From Gemmatimonadaceae bacterium (GTDB lineage: Bacteria > Gemmatimonadota > Gemmatimonadetes > Gemmatimonadales > Gemmatimonadaceae), in the NCBI GenBank assembly GCA_019186945.1, contig JABAQJ010000001.1, forward strand, positions 186,001-250,000: a DNA stretch of 64,000 nt, read 5' to 3'. Within the stretch, counting starts at the first letter, position 1. Each line of letters begins with the position of its first letter. Positions 23,866 through 31,567 of the stretch are shown here, piece after piece. A model generated the notes under the pieces. That model saw only the letters and a list, made by a program, of their open reading frames with translations, ran no database searches and was not told the origin of the DNA. Position numbers and translations under genes: made by a program.

Positions 23866-24705
23866 ATGGCACGCAGGGCAGTTCGATTTCTCGCTATTCT
23901 GATCGCGCTCGGCGTCGTGTTCTATTCGCGTTCGCGGGGCACGTCGTCACGCGTTGACGAGGACGATACGCCGGCGGCCGACACGTCGGCGGACGGTCGG
24001 TTCAGGCCGACCGTACAGGAGGGCTTGGGCGCCTCCGTGGCGATACTGCTCGATCAGTCCGGATCGATGGAAGACGCACCGGATTCGGGCGGCGACACGC
24101 CGAAGTACCGGATCGCACGGGAGGCAATCGCCCAGGTGCTTGCCCAAACGGACTCGTTCGTCACGCTTCATCCGGACTTTCAGGTGAACGTCGGACTGTA
24201 TGTGTTCGACGGCGATGTGCGGATGGAGCTGCCGATCGCGCGGTATCGTGGTAGTGCGCTGACGGCCGCTCTGGCGAATCTTCCGGAGCCTTCCGGGAAC
24301 ACGGCGATTGGCGATGCGATGCAGCGGGCCACGCGCGATCTGTACGCTGCCGGCACGATCCGCAAGTATCTCCTTGTCGTAACCGATGGAGCGAACACCA
24401 GTGGCAGGGAGCCGGACGTGGTAGCGAGGGAGATCGCCCGTCGCAGCGAAGGGGCAGTGAAGTTGTACATGGTGGCGTTCGACATCGACGCCGCCAGGTT
24501 CGGGTTCGTGAACGAGGTGCGGGGAGCGGTCCTTCACGCAAATGACGGCCCGGGACTGCGCGCCAGCCTGGATACGTTGTATCGTGGTCGGATTCTGGCC
24601 GAGGCAGTAGATGCTGGCGAGACGATTCCTGCGCGCACCGATTCAGCGGGCACGCGTGGCTCGCGACCTGTACCTTCTTCCGTTTCCCCTATTCCTCCGC
24701 GGTGA
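23866..24705 (+). CDS. membrane-anchored von Willebrand factor A (vWA) protein
   Basis: 279 residues: one N-terminal helix (about 7-20) flanked on both sides by Arg residues, a short linker, then a vWA domain. The metal-ion-dependent adhesion site is complete: DQSGS at 63-67, Thr146 in GNTAIGDAM and Asp174 in VTDGANTSG. The last 30 residues are Pro/Ser-rich. vWA domains bind partner proteins through the metal, often together with AAA+ ATPases. First gene of a seven-gene block; only six bases separate it from pspA. Which side of the membrane the vWA domain faces is ambiguous, because charges flank the helix on both sides. Confidence 0.88.
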   Translation: MARRAVRFLAILIALGVVFYSRSRGTSSRVDEDDTPAADTSADGRFRPTVQEGLGASVAILLDQSGSMEDAPDSGGDTPKYRIAREAIAQVLAQTDSFVTLHPDFQVNVGLYVFDGDVRMELPIARYRGSALTAALANLPEPSGNTAIGDAMQRATRDLYAAGTIRKYLLVVTDGANTSGREPDVVAREIARRSEGAVKLYMVAFDIDAARFGFVNEVRGAVLHANDGPGLRASLDTLYRGRILAEAVDAGETIPARTDSAGTRGSRPVPSSVSPIPPR

Positions 24706-24711
24706 CCACAT

Positions 24712-25458
24712 ATGATCATGGGCAAGTTCGGAACGGCGGTTCGGGCCTTCTTCAACAAGCTGGCGAACCTGCTTTGGGAGAGCGATCCGCATGCCATCCT
24801 TCAGCTGGAGGTGGATCAGGCGACGCAACAGATCCAGGTTGCGCGCCAGGGGTTGGAGCAGTATCGCGGGCTGGTAGAGCGTGTGAGCATGCAGGTAGCC
24901 GCCGGCAAGCAGAACGCTCAGCGGCTCGAGAGCCAGATCAAGGCGCATCTGCAGGCCGGCAACCGCGACGTCGCCGGTCAGTTGGCCATCCAGCTGCAGC
25001 AGGTCAAGTCCGATCTGGCGCAGAACGAACAGCAATTGGCGATGCATACGGATGCGTACAGCAACAACCTGCTGAAGCTGCAACAGGGGCAGAAGGACAT
25101 CGCGGCCTTGCGTCAGAAGGCCCAGAAGCTGAAAGCGGATCTGGAGATGGCGAAGGCGGAAGCGGAGATCGCACGAGTGGCCGAAGCGATTTCGGAGTCC
25201 GCGATTCCGAACTTCTCGACCCGGATTGGCCAGGCGACGGAGTTGATGCAGGACCAGATTGCCAAGCATCGTGGCGAGGCGCGCGTCGCGGCGGACATGT
25301 CGAGCCGTGGTGTGGAGGAGATTCGGGCGCAGCAGGCTGCCGAGGCTGCGTTGGGTGAGGATCTCCTCAAGCAGTTCGAGGTGGAGCTTGGCCTGGTAAA
25401 CGCCGAGTCGGCGCCACAAGCGAAGGCGCAGAAGACCCTCGGTCCACAGACGCAGTAA
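24712..25458 (+). CDS. pspA: PspA/IM30 (Vipp1) family membrane-stress protein
   Basis: 248 residues, almost all helical and coiled-coil. The amphipathic N-terminal helix (GKFGTAVRAFFNKLANLLW) is followed by SDPHAILQLEVDQATQQIQ, the normal PspA start. Long Gln/Ala/Lys-rich hairpin helices run to about residue 220. PspA/Vipp1 proteins are bacterial members of the ESCRT-III superfamily: they bind stressed inner membrane and assemble into rings or rods. Two starts are possible, 24712 and 24718 (MIMGKFG). No PspF, PspB or PspC gene is nearby, so the regulation of the proteobacterial psp operon does not apply. Its partners here are a vWA protein, an ABC system and an AAA+ ATPase. Confidence 0.92.
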   Translation: MIMGKFGTAVRAFFNKLANLLWESDPHAILQLEVDQATQQIQVARQGLEQYRGLVERVSMQVAAGKQNAQRLESQIKAHLQAGNRDVAGQLAIQLQQVKSDLAQNEQQLAMHTDAYSNNLLKLQQGQKDIAALRQKAQKLKADLEMAKAEAEIARVAEAISESAIPNFSTRIGQATELMQDQIAKHRGEARVAADMSSRGVEEIRAQQAAEAALGEDLLKQFEVELGLVNAESAPQAKAQKTLGPQTQ

Positions 25459-25503
25459 CCATCCCGGCGTTCGATCGTATTTCTGTCTTCAGCCCAGACT
25501 TCA

Positions 25504-27243
25504 ATGACCAACGGTAGCGGTGGCGGGCCGAAGCCCGCGTTTTACCTCGTGATGTTTACGCTCGTCGTGGCCGTGATCGGTTACGGCGTGTATCGGTTCA
25601 AGGATCGTATCTCGTTGGGCGACAGCGGAGCGATCAGCGCGACCGACCTGGCGCAGGGCGGCCCGGAAGCACCGGACGACGCGTCGCTGACGACGTTCAA
25701 GGAGTACGACAAGCTCAAGTACCAGGAAGCCGGGAAGATGCCGGAAGTCAAAGGCGTCTCCAGCTACGCGCCGTTCGCGGACAACACCGTCATCTTCTCG
25801 CTCAACGTCTGGGCGGGCTGGGCGCCGATCATTCTCGCGAATAACGGGTTCGAGCCGGGGAAGGTGTGGACGGCGGCAAATGGCAAGACTTTCAAGGTCA
25901 AGCTGACGCTGATCGACGACCCGGTGTCGATGCGGGATGCCTATGCTGCGGGCAAGGTTCACGTCGGCTGGGCGACGGTCGACATGCTGCCGCTGTTCCT
26001 CGAGCAGCTCAAACGCGATTCGCGCACCATGCCGCGCGTCTATCAGCAGATCGACTACTCGTTCGGCGGCGACGGCATCGTGTGCCGGAGTGCGATCAAG
26101 TCGGTGTCGGACCTGAAGGGGAAGACGATCGTGCTGGCGCAGAACTCGCCCTCGCACTACTTCGCACTGAACACGCTGATCTCTGGTGGGCTCCAGCCGG
26201 GCGACGTGGATTGGAAGTTCACGGCCGATGCGTTCCAGGCGGCCGCGGCGTTCAACGCCGACAAGCGGATCGCGTGCGCGGTATCCTGGTCGCCCGACAT
26301 CTACAACCTGGCGAACGCGAGCGGAAACAGGATGCTCGTCAACACGCAGACGGCGAACAAGCTCATCGCGGATACCTGGTTCCTGCGAGCGGACGTAGCC
26401 AAGGATCATCCGTACCTGGCAGAGGCGTTGATGCGCGGGATCTTCGACGCGATGGAGCAGTTGCGGACGCAAGACGGGAAAGCGGCCGCGGCGAAGCTGA
26501 TGGCGAAGGGATACTCGCTACCGGAAGCGGACGCGCTTGCGATGCTGGGCGATGCGCATAACACGAACGTGGCGGAGAACCGGGAGTTCTTCCTCAATGC
26601 CAATAATCCTGCAAACTTTCAGCGCACGTTCGAGACGGCGTATTTCCTCTACCGGAAAATCGGCGCGTTGTCCGGGGACGCCGTGGCATTCGACGACATC
26701 TTCGACGGTGGGCCGCTGTCGAAGCTGGTCAAGGATCCCAGGTTCGCCAACCAGAAGAACGAGTACCAGATCCAGTTCGTGCCGACGACGGCGATGTCGG
26801 TCCAGGCAGAGAGCAACGAGATTCTGACAAAGGCAGTCGTCATCCAGTTCTTCCCGAACTCGGACTCGCTCTTCAAGATGATCACGAAGACTGCTGACGG
26901 GAAAACCGTGGAAGAGTTGTACGATCCGAACGTGAACAACGTGATCGAGGAAGTGGGTCGATTGGCCGGGCAATACGGTGCGGCGCGCATCGTGGTCGAA
27001 GGGCATACCGACGCGTCGATGCGCTCGTCAGGCATGGTGAGTGCCGCCGATGTGCAGGAGCTGTCGTTGCGTCGCGCGAACGCGGTCAAGCAGGCGATCG
27101 TCAGGAAGTTCAGTTCACTAAACCCGAACCAGTTCTCCACAGCGGGAGTCGGCTGGGACCGGCCCGCGGATCCGAGCGACCCCAACAACAACGCCAAGAA
27201 TCGACGGGTCGAGATCAAGGTCTACCCGCTGGAACAGAAGTAA
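25504..27243 (+). CDS. solute-binding protein fused to an OmpA peptidoglycan-binding domain
   Basis: 579 residues in three parts. First, an N-terminal uncleaved-looking helix (about 11-30) that should anchor it in the inner membrane. Second, a NitT/TauT/ThiY-like periplasmic-binding domain (about 80-400), with NVWAGWAPIILANNGFE, KVHVGWATVDMLPLF and LKGKTIVLAQNSPSHYF. Third, a C-terminal OmpA-like domain (about 440-579) with VVEGHTDAS at 498-506, LSLRRANAVKQAI and NRRVEIKV, the residues that bind diaminopimelate in peptidoglycan. The protein could therefore bridge inner membrane and cell wall while presenting a ligand to the permease encoded two bases downstream. The ligand is unknown. Confidence 0.9.
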   Translation: MTNGSGGGPKPAFYLVMFTLVVAVIGYGVYRFKDRISLGDSGAISATDLAQGGPEAPDDASLTTFKEYDKLKYQEAGKMPEVKGVSSYAPFADNTVIFSLNVWAGWAPIILANNGFEPGKVWTAANGKTFKVKLTLIDDPVSMRDAYAAGKVHVGWATVDMLPLFLEQLKRDSRTMPRVYQQIDYSFGGDGIVCRSAIKSVSDLKGKTIVLAQNSPSHYFALNTLISGGLQPGDVDWKFTADAFQAAAAFNADKRIACAVSWSPDIYNLANASGNRMLVNTQTANKLIADTWFLRADVAKDHPYLAEALMRGIFDAMEQLRTQDGKAAAAKLMAKGYSLPEADALAMLGDAHNTNVAENREFFLNANNPANFQRTFETAYFLYRKIGALSGDAVAFDDIFDGGPLSKLVKDPRFANQKNEYQIQFVPTTAMSVQAESNEILTKAVVIQFFPNSDSLFKMITKTADGKTVEELYDPNVNNVIEEVGRLAGQYGAARIVVEGHTDASMRSSGMVSAADVQELSLRRANAVKQAIVRKFSSLNPNQFSTAGVGWDRPADPSDPNNNAKNRRVEIKVYPLEQK

Positions 27244-27245
27244 GG

Positions 27246-28058
27246 ATGACAGCCCGTCATCTCTTCGCGTTGCGCGTGGTCCCTTCACTGCCGGTGCGCC
27301 AGGCAGCGGGCAGTGCGGCGATTGCGGCCGTATTGCTCGTCTGGTGGTTCCTGACGAGCGGTGTGACACCGGAGGCGCGCACGATCTCGCCGTCCGTCTT
27401 CCCCAGTCCAATGGAAGTGATCCGTGGGTTCCCGTCGCTCGTAACGGATCGGAATCTCATTGGCGGGATCGCTGCGTCGCTCAACCGTGTCTTCCTGGGT
27501 TTCGGGCTCGCGCTCCTGGTGGGGATCCCGCTTGGTATCGTCGCCGGATCGTTTCGTCTCATTGGTGCCGCGGCGCAGCCCATCTCGCTCTTCGGGCGCA
27601 CGATCCCGGTGGCGGCACTCCTTCCACTGACGCTGCAGATGTTCGGGATAGGCGAACTGCAGAAGGTGATGTTCATCTTCCTCGCGACAGCTCCGTTCGT
27701 TTTTCACGACACAGCGCGCGCGATAGCGAGCGTGCACGATCGGTATGTGGACACCGCCCAGACTCTCGGTGCGAGTTCTGCGGACGTCATGGCCAAGGTG
27801 CTGATTGCGCTCGCGCTTCCCGACATCTACGCAACGATTCGCACCATGTTCGGCATCGCCTTCGGGTACATCATGCTGGCGGAGGTGGTCGATGCGAAGG
27901 CGGGGCTGGGGTTCATAATGCTGCAGAGTCAGCGGCGCGGCATGCCCGAACACCTGGTCGCGACGCTCTTCGTCATCTCCGCACTGGCCTACGGACTCGA
28001 CGCGCTGTTCCGGTTCTTCCAGCGCGGCCTCTTCCCGTATCGCGAAGATCATGACTAG
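27246..28058 (+). CDS. ABC transporter permease, NitT/TauT type
   Basis: 270 residues with about six transmembrane helices and the binding-protein-dependent permease domain. The cytoplasmic EAA loop is DTAQTLGASSADVMAKVLIALALPDI (about 175-200; the first and last parts are the conserved ones). It should form a dimer with the ATPase encoded next, with which it overlaps by eight bases. The substrate is unknown; the family includes nitrate, taurine, sulphonate and thiamine-precursor importers. Start ATG at 27246 is two bases after the stop of the binding-protein gene, so the three subunits are made together. Confidence 0.9.
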   Translation: MTARHLFALRVVPSLPVRQAAGSAAIAAVLLVWWFLTSGVTPEARTISPSVFPSPMEVIRGFPSLVTDRNLIGGIAASLNRVFLGFGLALLVGIPLGIVAGSFRLIGAAAQPISLFGRTIPVAALLPLTLQMFGIGELQKVMFIFLATAPFVFHDTARAIASVHDRYVDTAQTLGASSADVMAKVLIALALPDIYATIRTMFGIAFGYIMLAEVVDAKAGLGFIMLQSQRRGMPEHLVATLFVISALAYGLDALFRFFQRGLFPYREDHD

Positions 28059-28890
28059 CGACGCGACGCCGCCACCTGCCTCCGCCACGCCGCCGCCGGT
28101 CGTGAAGTTCGACCGTGTCAGCAAGACGTACGATGGTGGCTATACCGCCATTCGTGACGTGACCTTCGAGGTGGACGATGTCCCGGGTCACATGGAGATC
28201 GTTGGCATTCTCGGGCCCTCGGGGTGCGGAAAGTCCACCGTGTTGCGGTTGATCGCGGGACTGACGCCGCAGCATCCGGCAACCAGCGGGACCGTAGAGG
28301 TGATGGGCAAGCCGGTAGCGATGCCCGGAGCGGATCGCGGTTTCGTGTTTCAGGACTACACGTCCTTCGACAACCGGACAGTGCAGGACAACATCGCATT
28401 TGGGCTGGAGTGTCGGGGCATGGGGAGCGCCGAGCGAACGGCGCTCGCCCGCGAGTGGATCGCCAAGGTAGGGCTCGACGTCGATCGGGACGCGGAGAAG
28501 TATCCACACGAATTGTCCGGCGGCATGCGACAGCGCGTGGCACTGGCGCGGACACTGATCCTCAAGCCGCGCGTGATCCTGATGGACGAGCCGTTCGGTG
28601 CGCTCGACCCCGGGACTCGTTATGCAATGCAGGATCTTCTGGTCTCGCTCGCGCGAGAGGTGCAGGCCACGGTCTTCCTCGTTACGCACTCGATCGAAGA
28701 AGCGGTCTACGTGGGGGATCGCCTGTTCATCTTCTCGAACGCTCCAGGAACGATCCTCCGCCAGATGTCGACGCCGCCGCCAGATCGTCCCGCACGGGTC
28801 ATGCAACGCGAGGCGTCGTTCCTCGACATCGTCTTCGAGGTGCGCGACATCGTCGATGGCATCGAGGAGTCCGCCGGGGCCGCCACATGA
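28051..28890 (+). CDS. ABC transporter ATP-binding protein, NitT/TauT type
   Basis: 279 residues. Walker A GPSGCGKST at 55-63, Q-loop Gln101, signature LSGGMRQ at 155-161, Walker B ending in MDEP with D-loop ALD near 185, and switch His213 in VTHSIEEA. All catalytic elements are intact, so it should power the permease encoded by the overlapping upstream gene. The N-terminal 17 residues are Pro/Ala-rich. Fifteen bases separate it from the coiled-coil membrane-protein gene, so the ABC module is embedded in the PspA block rather than being an adjacent independent operon. Confidence 0.93.
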   Translation: MTSDATPPPASATPPPVVKFDRVSKTYDGGYTAIRDVTFEVDDVPGHMEIVGILGPSGCGKSTVLRLIAGLTPQHPATSGTVEVMGKPVAMPGADRGFVFQDYTSFDNRTVQDNIAFGLECRGMGSAERTALAREWIAKVGLDVDRDAEKYPHELSGGMRQRVALARTLILKPRVILMDEPFGALDPGTRYAMQDLLVSLAREVQATVFLVTHSIEEAVYVGDRLFIFSNAPGTILRQMSTPPPDRPARVMQREASFLDIVFEVRDIVDGIEESAGAAT

Positions 28891-28905
28891 CGATAACAGT
28901 CTCCC

Positions 28906-29775
28906 ATGGCTGATCCTTCCGCTTCGGGCGGCGGCTTCCTCAGGTACGTCAGGCGTGCCTTCGCGCAGCGGTGGAACCTCGGCCTGTTCGGCGTGGCCAC
29001 GGCTTTCGCGCTACTCTCGCCGGCTCCGGACGCGCTCGTCCCGATCGTTCTTGGTCTGGAAGGAGCCTACTTGTTGGGCCTGGTGAGCCGGCCGCGCTTT
29101 CGCCAGTACGTGGATGCACAGGAAGCGGCCGCATCGCGCGCGGTGCGCGAAGGGACGGCGGTGGACCTGTATTCCCAGCTCCAGGCACGCCTGAGCATGG
29201 GCGACCGGCAGCGCTTCCAGCGCGTCGTCGATCGCTGCGAAGACATGCGGCGCCTCGCGAAGACGGCGCACGCGACGGCCACGCCCGACGACAACCTGCG
29301 CGAGTCGGCGCTCAATCGGCTCCTCTTCTTCTATCTGCGGCTTCTGGTCGCACGACGCTCGCTCGAACAGTTCCTTCAGCAGAGCAACCGGGCCGAGCTG
29401 CAATCGCAGCGCACCGGTTTCGCCTCGAGACTCGCGGGTGCGGAAACGGCCGGTGATCAACGCATGGTTGCCTCGCTCCAGGATACGCTCAAGGATCTCG
29501 ACACGCGTATCGCCAACGTCGACAAGGGAGAAAAGGACGCGCAGTTCATGGACCTGGAGCTGACCCGTATCGAAGGAAAGGTCAACGCGCTGGCGGAGAC
29601 GGCAATCACACGGCAGGATCCGGGGGAACTGAGTGCCCAGGTAAGCGCGTTCACGGACACCCTGAGCCTGTCGCAGGACGTCGCCTCGCAGATGATCTCC
29701 CTGCAGGATCTGGAGCTGGCAGCGGCGGATGCGCCGCCAATCCTGGGGCGCGCCCGTGCCCGTCAGGTGAACTGA
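28906..29775 (+). CDS. coiled-coil membrane protein of the PspA-AAA+ block
   Basis: I do not recognise a family. 289 residues: a hydrophobic hairpin at about 24-60 (LGLFGVATAFALLSP, then LVPIVLGLEGAYLLGLV), probably two closely spaced helices, followed by about 220 residues of soluble, largely helical, heptad-like sequence. Long coiled-coil stretches lie near 75-130, 150-200 and 205-265. The soluble part should face the cytoplasm, where it could dock PspA or the AAA+ protein encoded one base downstream. The arrangement is reminiscent of membrane adaptors in other AAA+ systems, but no specific homology is claimed. Confidence 0.75.
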   Translation: MADPSASGGGFLRYVRRAFAQRWNLGLFGVATAFALLSPAPDALVPIVLGLEGAYLLGLVSRPRFRQYVDAQEAAASRAVREGTAVDLYSQLQARLSMGDRQRFQRVVDRCEDMRRLAKTAHATATPDDNLRESALNRLLFFYLRLLVARRSLEQFLQQSNRAELQSQRTGFASRLAGAETAGDQRMVASLQDTLKDLDTRIANVDKGEKDAQFMDLELTRIEGKVNALAETAITRQDPGELSAQVSAFTDTLSLSQDVASQMISLQDLELAAADAPPILGRARARQVN

Positions 29776-29776
29776 G

Positions 29777-31567
29777 ATGACGGACGAAGCGCGAGACGGT
29801 GTGGTCGATACTCCGACGGCGGCAGGGGCGACGATTCCCGGATGGTATCCGGCATGGGCAAAGGAGCTCGCCGGTGCCTACTTCGCCGGCAGTGCGTCGC
29901 TGTTCGTGCTGCACGGCAATACGTTCGACGAAGTGCCTCTGGATGCGGGCGAGTTGCCTTCGTATGGCCCGATCTCGACGTTCATTGCCGAGCAGCTGTT
30001 CGGGAGCTGGGATCTGGTGCTGCACTACGATGCCGGCCGGGGCATTCGACCGTTCGGGGGACGCGACGCGATGCGGCTGCGTCAGATGGCGCCACGCACG
30101 GCGGAGATCTTCGGTGGCGACCTGGAGAAGTCACGTGTCGTGGAGCCCCAAGCCGTGTTCGCGGCGCTCGATCGCCACCTCATCCAGCAGCTCAACACGC
30201 TCCCCGAGTCCCGGCGACGCGTGGCACTTCTGGTGGATCACGCCTCCTTCGTCTTTCCCAATGCGGAGCCGGGTACGCTATCGCTGAGCGCGAGTTCGGC
30301 CGCGGTCACCGCCCTCAACTGGGCGGCCGCCGCCAGCGTCAGGCGGATCGACTTCGCCTGCGTCCTGATCGAAGAACGGCGGGCCAACCTGCAACAGCGC
30401 ATCACGCAAAACCCGCACGTCGTCACGATCGAGATCCCCCTGCCTGACGCGGATCAGCGGCGACGCTATATCCGCACGCTGGTTGGCGCGCGGAGCGCAG
30501 TGTTCGCCGACGGTCTCGCCGCCACTGACTACGCCGAGGAGACAGCAGGTCTTGCGCTCAACGATCTGGCTCCGCCGTTGCGTGCGGCGCTCGAAGGGCA
30601 GGCGCGGCTGAATCGCGTGGCGTTCTCGCGACTCAAGAAGACGCTGATCGAGCGACAGTGTCACGGGTTGCTCGAGTTCGTCGAACCACAATTCACACTC
30701 GACGACGTCGTGGGACTCGATGCCGCCAAGCGCACCCTGCGCGAGGATGCGAAGCTCATCGAGCGGGGACACCGAAAGTTCGCGCCGATGGGTTACCTGA
30801 TCTGCGGACCAGTGGGCACGGGGAAGACGTTCCTGGTAATGGCTGCCGCCGGCGAGATGGGCATGCCATGCGTCACGCTGAAGAACTTTCGCTCGAAGTA
30901 CGTGGGCGAGACAGAGGCGAACCTGGAGCATGTGCTGTCCGTGTTGCGCGCCATGGGTCCGGTGATGGTCATCGTGGACGAAGCGGATGCGATGCTGGGC
31001 GATCGTGAATCCGGTGGCGACGCGGGAGTGTCCAGCCGGGTTTTCGGGATGATTGCGCACCAGATGGGGAACACGGATTACCGCGGGCAGATCGTCTGGG
31101 TGCTGATGACGGCCCGGCCGGACCTGTTGCCTATCGACCTGAAGCGACAGGGCCGAGCCGAAGTACACATCCCCCTGTTTTATCCGGAGAGCGACGATGA
31201 ACTGCGCCAGATGCTGCGGGCGATGTCGCGGAAGGCTGGTGTGTCGTTGGCGGAGGATGCCGCAGGTCCGTCGCTGGCAATCCCGCACGTGGGACAGCTG
31301 TCCGGTGCGGACATCGAGGGCGTGGTGACGCGCGCCGCCCGCCAGGCGGGGATTGCAGGGGAGGCCACGATTTCGAAGGAGCGCCTGGAACGGGCGCTGG
31401 CCGATTTCATCCCATCAGCCCAATCGCTGGAAAAGCGACTGCAGATCGCCGCGGCGATCCTGGAGTGCACGGATACGGCGTTCCTTCCGGCGTCTTATCG
31501 GACGGCGGATCGAGCGGCGCTCCAAGCGGAGATGTCGACGATCAAGATGCACTTGCGCTCGTCGTGA
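29777..31567 (+). CDS. two-domain AAA+ ATPase (degenerate first domain, active second domain)
   Basis: 596 residues. The N-terminal half (about 35-290) has the outline of an ATPase domain whose P-loop is lost: FVLHGNTFDEV stands where Walker A should be and VALLVDHASF resembles Walker B. The second half is a classic-clade AAA+ domain: Walker A GPVGTGKT at 344-351, an aromatic pore-loop-like SKYVGETE at 373-380, Walker B VIVDEADA (398-405), sensor-1 region MTARPD, and an Arg-finger candidate at Arg460 in KRQGRAE. The inactive-plus-active layout resembles Ycf46-type proteins. It ends the seven-gene block, and its ATG is one base after the previous stop. Likely job: remodelling a partner such as PspA; this is inference. 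Confidence 0.88.
   Translation: MTDEARDGVVDTPTAAGATIPGWYPAWAKELAGAYFAGSASLFVLHGNTFDEVPLDAGELPSYGPISTFIAEQLFGSWDLVLHYDAGRGIRPFGGRDAMRLRQMAPRTAEIFGGDLEKSRVVEPQAVFAALDRHLIQQLNTLPESRRRVALLVDHASFVFPNAEPGTLSLSASSAAVTALNWAAAASVRRIDFACVLIEERRANLQQRITQNPHVVTIEIPLPDADQRRRYIRTLVGARSAVFADGLAATDYAEETAGLALNDLAPPLRAALEGQARLNRVAFSRLKKTLIERQCHGLLEFVEPQFTLDDVVGLDAAKRTLREDAKLIERGHRKFAPMGYLICGPVGTGKTFLVMAAAGEMGMPCVTLKNFRSKYVGETEANLEHVLSVLRAMGPVMVIVDEADAMLGDRESGGDAGVSSRVFGMIAHQMGNTDYRGQIVWVLMTARPDLLPIDLKRQGRAEVHIPLFYPESDDELRQMLRAMSRKAGVSLAEDAAGPSLAIPHVGQLSGADIEGVVTRAARQAGIAGEATISKERLERALADFIPSAQSLEKRLQIAAAILECTDTAFLPASYRTADRAALQAEMSTIKMHLRSS

Follow-up and report, generated by a model that had tools for sequence, protein, structure and literature searches.

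A p97-like tandem AAA+ ATPase paired with a divergent PspA paralogue in Gemmatimonadota and Planctomycetota, a candidate remodeller of a bacterial ESCRT-III-superfamily protein

In eukaryotic (human) cells, Vps4 is the motor that disassembles ESCRT-III polymers, and it is recruited by the MIM tails of the ESCRT-III proteins. The same superfamily includes bacterial PspA, to which the AAA+ protein PspF is tied, an NtrC-type transcription activator with a helix-turn-helix (HTH). A dedicated remodelling ATPase for the bacterial ESCRT-III proteins is a stated open question: according to Liu et al. 2021 (PMC8281802), it is uncertain both whether PspF works in the manner of Vps4 and whether Vipp1 is served by a comparable ATPase. 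The PspA structure paper of 2024 (PMC11746142) discusses PspF as the AAA+ of the Psp systems and describes a nucleotide-dependent plasticity of Synechocystis PspA that occurs without any AAA+. The closest described system is found in the passages on PspA of Ravi et al. 2024 (PMC11237479), which associate bacterial PspA with a protein of two AAA domains, the N-terminal copy being inactive, in a gene set that also comprises a Snf7 homologue with a transmembrane (TM) segment, an ABC ATPase, a permease and a PBPB-OmpA protein (e.g. OGG56892.1). These passages infer an ATP-dependent membrane remodelling comparable to that of Snf7/Vps4, a prediction for which our literature search found no experimental test.

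The window analysed here, a stretch of 64,000 nucleotides from a Gemmatimonadaceae genome, carries seven co-directional genes (23866-31567, + strand) separated by gaps of at most 45 bp, which are likely to form a single transcription unit (Table 1); a scan for promoters and terminators gave no more sites than expected by chance. Their order is vWA, PspA paralogue, SBP-OmpA, ABC permease, ABC ATPase, 2-TM helical protein and AAA+. The earlier note had placed pspA four genes from the AAA+ gene, with a coiled-coil membrane protein beside the latter, and both statements hold: four genes separate 24712-25458 from 29777-31567, and the membrane protein is encoded at 28906-29775. It had overlooked that the intervening genes belong with these, the set being conserved as a whole in two phyla. 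Of the elements named in the passages of Ravi et al., PspA, an AAA+ with an inactive N-terminal domain, the ABC ATPase, the permease and SBP-OmpA are present in one operon. The 2-TM helical protein is a putative counterpart of their TM-bearing Snf7 homologue, by position and topology. Judged from its gene content and domain architecture, the system of the window is one of the PspA/two-AAA kind already predicted, the two agreeing, by description, in gene set, in the tandem AAA with a dead first domain and in the functional inference. The AAA+/PspA idea of the earlier note is therefore an independent rediscovery of what those passages propose. Their account consists of examples, to which the present set adds Gemmatimonadota and Planctomycetota loci and a co-occurrence test; the quantified co-occurrence, the PspA-AAA core, the split loci and the conserved PspA tail motif are new here.

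Table 1. Features of the PspA-AAA operon in the window (residue numbers refer to the AAA+ protein unless the row concerns another protein).
Feature	Coordinates	Strand	Evidence
TM-anchored von Willebrand A (vWA) domain protein, optional component	23866..24705	+	PF00092 E 1.9e-13
PspA/Vipp1-family protein, AAA-linked subtype, 248 aa	24712..25458	+	PF04012 E 3.7e-14
PspA C-terminal tail motif KTLGP ([KR]-x-[ILM]-G, mostly then P)	25432..25446	+	51/51 of subtype
N-terminal TM, periplasmic SBP domain and OmpA (peptidoglycan-binding)	25504..27243	+	OmpA PF00691 E 5.1e-10
ABC importer permease, TauC/SsuC/NtrB type	27246..28058	+	PF00528 E 2.1e-18; NCBIfam SaoP/TauC
ABC importer ATPase, TauB type	28051..28890	+	PF00005 E 9.5e-29; TauB model E 2.1e-59
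Helical membrane protein with a pair of hydrophobic helices (~22-61) ahead of a long helical hairpin	28906..29775	+	model pLDDT 88; family alignment
AAA+ ATPase, classic clade, 596 aa	29777..31567	+	PF00004 E 7.4e-23; AlphaFold mean pLDDT 92
N-terminal degenerate AAA domain, residues ~22-298	29840..30670	+	hhalign, residue counts, structural alignment
Walker A GPVGTGKT, residues 344-351	30806..30829	+	K350 in 63/63 homologues
Pore loop 1 SKYVGETE, residues 373-380	30893..30916	+	Y/F/W at 375 and G377, each 63/63
Walker B VMVIVDE, residues 396-402	30962..30982	+	D401 and E402 in 63/63 homologues
Arginine fingers R457, R460 (RQGR)	31145..31156	+	62/63 and 63/63 homologues respectively

In the SBP part of 25504..27243, the Phosphonate-bd and NMT1 Pfam matches are sub-threshold and urea/sulfonate SBP models match. 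The vWA gene belongs to a minority of operons overall, homologues being present in those of L018, L115 and L116. In the last two, which are planctomycete loci, it again lies upstream of the operon, which makes it more likely an ancient optional component than a gemmatimonadete addition. A MoxR-vWA pairing was considered and rejected: the vWA protein has a TM anchor and occurs in a minority of operons, and the AAA is not of MoxR type by Pfam.

The claim of a classic-clade AAA+ with intact Walker A, Walker B and aromatic pore loop is borne out. The reading frame is real and complete, with PF00004 at residues 341-466; its Walker B stretch ends in VIVDEAD, its pore-loop aromatic is Y375, and each classic AAA feature (Walker A and B, two SRH arginines, aromatic pore loop 1) is kept in 62 or 63 of the 63 homologues. 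That description was nevertheless incomplete, the C-terminal domain being preceded by a second AAA domain (residues ~22-298), which is degenerate: the sequence FVLHGNTFDEV stands in the place of Walker A, and the Walker B Glu is missing. The N-terminal and C-terminal halves match each other in a profile-profile comparison (hhalign prob 93, E 2.9e-7, 215 columns), and residues 25-581 of an AlphaFold model built on the 63 homologues align to p97 210-767 (VIA Z 22.8, 473 aligned, rmsd 6.4). The AAA+ is a p97-like tandem whose first domain is degenerate and whose second is fully equipped. In genome G194 the gene is split over two overlapping frames (L026:2335-3969), by a frameshift or an assembly error.

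A kinship with Vps4 is not supported by the comparison of architectures and scores. Pfam finds no MIT domain in the window AAA+, residues 22-298 being a degenerate AAA instead, and no Vps4_C among matches up to E 1. The CdvC equivalog model scores 49.2 bits, far below its cut-off of 650, the CDC48 model 82.6 bits; Vps4 is the lowest-scoring usable reference, and the sequence is nearer Cdc48 and FtsH. The tandem AAA unfoldases provide the best PDB sequence matches, and the family forms its own clade in the AAA-domain tree (support 100/99), adjoined by Vps4 at only 83/74 in what is a small tree with few references. The resemblance to Vps4/CdvC and ESCRT-III/CdvB lies in the pairing of a classic AAA bearing an aromatic pore loop with a protein of the ESCRT-III superfamily, and the C-terminal domain is structurally as near Vps4 (Z 22.4, 266 aligned, rmsd 3.0) as p97. 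Unlike Vps4/CdvC, however, the window protein is a tandem AAA with a dead first ring, in which neither MIT nor Vps4_C was found; it may work like Vps4 without possessing the features that define Vps4. The tandem rings and the full-length structural match are shared with Cdc48/p97, Rix7/NVL and Pex1/Pex6, and Pex1/Pex6 also combine a degenerate D1 with an active D2. In contrast to Cdc48/p97, no Cdc48 N domain precedes the first AAA, the first domain has no P-loop and the family is a clade of its own. As in the case of PspF, an AAA+ protein is tied to PspA, but neither a sigma54-activator family nor an HTH is found among the Pfam or NCBIfam matches of the window AAA+. For the Ycf46-like family, considered as possible kin, those matches included no model and the literature search gave nothing useful. 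A role in anti-phage defence (IetA, PADLOC E 2e-14) was rejected, the match spanning the generic AAA only and the operon having no IetS-type protease.

The operon PspA scores 53.3 bits against PF04012 (curated cut-off 33.9) over residues 1-214 and has the N-terminal helix and hairpin of the PspA/Vipp1 family. The profile of its subtype matches solved Vipp1/PspA structures (E 3.5e-11, chain residues 5-186), although a phmmer search of the PDB with the single sequence gave no match. The same genome has its canonical pspA on a different contig (G000:C4:90881-91546, E 2.0e-45), so that the operon gene is a second, divergent paralogue, a point that the earlier reading had missed. In all 51 AAA-linked PspAs, the last 60 residues contain, after a low-complexity linker, the tail motif of Table 1, for which shuffled tails give an expectation of 6.4%. 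The motif is absent from the 12 planctomycete canonical PspAs examined (12/12). Many canonical Gemmatimonadota PspAs carry a similar one, also in genomes that have no AAA+, and it is therefore not a specific marker. By analogy with the MIM tails of ESCRT-III, we consider it a candidate docking tail for the AAA+. Furthermore, a Glu equivalent to E179, the intrinsic-ATPase residue of Vipp1/PspA, was found in 0/51 AAA-linked PspAs against 33/34 canonical ones, in an alignment that is uncertain, the Glu being one column off in some sequences; this is at most suggestive of a subtype without the intrinsic-ATPase residue.

The search for AAA+ homologues covered 200 gemmatimonadete genomes, with matches in 12, and 294 planctomycete genomes, with matches in 53; the neighbourhoods of 71 AAA+ loci were scored with profiles of all seven genes. 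A PspA-type gene lies within 9 kb of the AAA+ gene in 43 loci and within 1.2 kb in 29, never on the opposite strand. In 11 others the AAA+ gene stands apart and a PspA of the same subtype is encoded elsewhere in the genome, in several cases together with SBP-OmpA, permease, ABC and membrane protein; of the remaining loci, seven are truncated at the end of a contig and ten show no PspA of this kind. The gene set is common to the two phyla in spite of a variable order: in the window the PspA gene stands close to the beginning and the AAA+ gene closes the set, whereas many Planctomycetes have PspA immediately before AAA+, with the transporter genes after them. In the planctomycete genomes, PF04012 occurs in 39 of the 43 that have a close homologue of the AAA+ and in 49 of the 241 that have none (39/4 versus 49/192 in the Fisher table from the 294 genomes; p = 5e-19), and in 40 of the 53 with any homologue against the same 49/241 (p = 4e-14), values that overstate the number of independent events because these genomes share ancestry. 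On the AAA+ tree, four changes are needed to account for the PspA-linked state. In two of the four close exceptions (L115 and L116; genomes G207 and G312), the operon does encode a PspA, a divergent one that goes unrecognised by Pfam. In the most distant AAA+ clade, a gene homologous to PspA is nearby in 9/9 loci (profile-profile prob 96, E 9.7e-9), and its products share a conserved LPE tail, situated at the extreme C-terminus in eight and present as IPEA in one. These homologues (L133-L141, e.g. L138:7437-8276) are barely or not at all recognised by Pfam.

A dedicated functional pairing of the AAA+ with PspA is well supported by the 39/43 against 49/241 distribution. The earlier note took the keeping of the AAA+ gene in genomes without pspA as an observation that would speak against its Vps4-like remodeller, and the answer is divided: the pairing holds in the Planctomycetes, but five Gemmatimonadota genomes (L028-L032) carry AAA+ proteins that fall on one long branch, with no PspA nearby and only the canonical PspA in the genome, so that the AAA+ can exist without this subtype. 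In this clade the pore loop reads SKWQGQTE or SMWQGQTE, and in three of the five loci the AAA+ gene has an alpha/beta-hydrolase-like gene and a glycosyltransferase-like gene as neighbours. The preferred reading of this clade is a secondary loss of the partner or a switch to another. Conversely, the planctomycetes G306, G335 and G391 have kept a PspA of this subtype (L155-L157) and show no AAA+ match.

The mechanism we propose, to which we give an even chance, makes the operon PspA paralogue the main client of the AAA+ and its remodelling the task of the p97-like tandem machine. The PspA paralogue would polymerise on the cytoplasmic face of the inner membrane, like its ESCRT-III-superfamily relatives, and the AAA+ would assemble, as expected from its family, into a double ring of hexamers. 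Its first ring, being catalytically dead, would serve as a docking and assembly platform, and the second, with its intact ATPase sites and aromatic pore loop, would take hold of PspA subunits, plausibly at the flexible tail of their C-terminus (K-x-[ILM]-G-P), and thread them. Their ATP-driven extraction would result in the disassembly of the coat or the exchange of its subunits. In most members the PspA coat would be tied to the ABC importer; as the SBP is anchored in the inner membrane and, by OmpA, in the peptidoglycan, the site of action is probably the membrane around an envelope-spanning transporter. The evidence for this remodelling is contextual throughout and comprises the operon, the co-occurrence, the nine loci of the distant clade, the PspA-AAA pair of two genomes described below, the invariant residues, the tail motif and the proposal in the passages of Ravi et al.; against it speak L028-L032, the three genomes with PspA and no AAA+, the poor specificity of the motif and the plasticity of Synechocystis PspA without an AAA+. 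More tentatively, the system could be a separately evolved bacterial equivalent of Vps4, in which a p97-type double ring with a dead first ring would disassemble a dedicated PspA polymer and be recruited by the C-terminal tail motif (K-x-[ILM]-G-P, or LPE in the divergent clade) as Vps4 is by MIM tails.

It is unlikely, though worth weighing, that the AAA+ is instead an assembly or quality-control chaperone of the ABC importer and the membrane protein 28906-29775, PspA being a passive membrane stabiliser of the complex. The transporter genes and the membrane protein do share the operon in the window and in most members, and the gene of the latter immediately precedes that of the AAA+ in Gemmatimonadota and in many Planctomycetes. 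Nevertheless, PspA and AAA+ genes are adjacent in G231 and G334, draft genomes in which the membrane protein and SBP-OmpA are undetected, and the 43 genomes with a close AAA+ comprise 33 with the membrane protein, 32 with SBP-OmpA and at least 41 with PspA, absences being soft in drafts. The pair and these counts point to PspA, more than the transporter, as the constant partner. Loci L091 and L123 are examples of such a minimal pair. Since in some genomes no other part of the system is detected beside this small, genetically linked pair, the question of a PspA-remodelling ATPase becomes testable with two purified proteins.

The membrane protein had also been proposed as the adaptor of the AAA+. 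That it would be required in this role is not supported: no such gene was found in several genomes where AAA+ and PspA are retained, and in many Planctomycetes it is distant from the AAA+ gene. We regard as improbable a related possibility, namely that the AAA+ remodels an ESCRT-like co-polymer of PspA and this protein, the latter being the TM-bearing Snf7 homologue that the passages of Ravi et al. (PMC11237479) place in the gene set. The model of the protein, with its long helical hairpin, aligns to Vipp1 (VIA Z 8.2, 116 aligned, rmsd 6.5) and to an Asgard ESCRT-IIIB (VIA Z 7.0, 109 aligned, rmsd 5.7); BAR domains and designed bundles, however, score equally, the profile-profile match to PspA reaches only prob 14, and the Pfam matches listed for the 30 members include neither a PspA nor a Snf7 family and none that is informative. 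A profile match to pneumococcal surface protein A concerns a different "PspA" and is most likely a coiled-coil chance match. Very improbable, finally, is an AAA+ with unrelated clients, or one serving in signalling or transcription like PspF, with only its regulation in common with PspA: the solo clade and its hydrolase-like and glycosyltransferase-like neighbours would suit it, but no HTH or sigma54-activator family was matched, and the co-occurrence survives the break-up of the operon in the 11 split loci, which is unexpected from shared regulation alone.

Two further observations concern the neighbourhood of the PspA-AAA pair, which we retain as the core of the proposed PspA-remodelling system. 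In Planctomycetes, a conserved protein of ~100 aa is encoded directly 3' of the AAA+ gene (L021:3165-3467, L022:11858-12163, L020:1912-2202 and L091:8666-8956); its L021 copy has no Pfam match. In the planctomycete locus L123 (12712-19901), the pair is followed by two ORFs and then by apparent membrane (YqiJ/NfeD-like) and flotillin-like proteins and a very large ORF, a cluster that resembles, judged by eye, another of the PspA partner clusters in the passages of Ravi et al.
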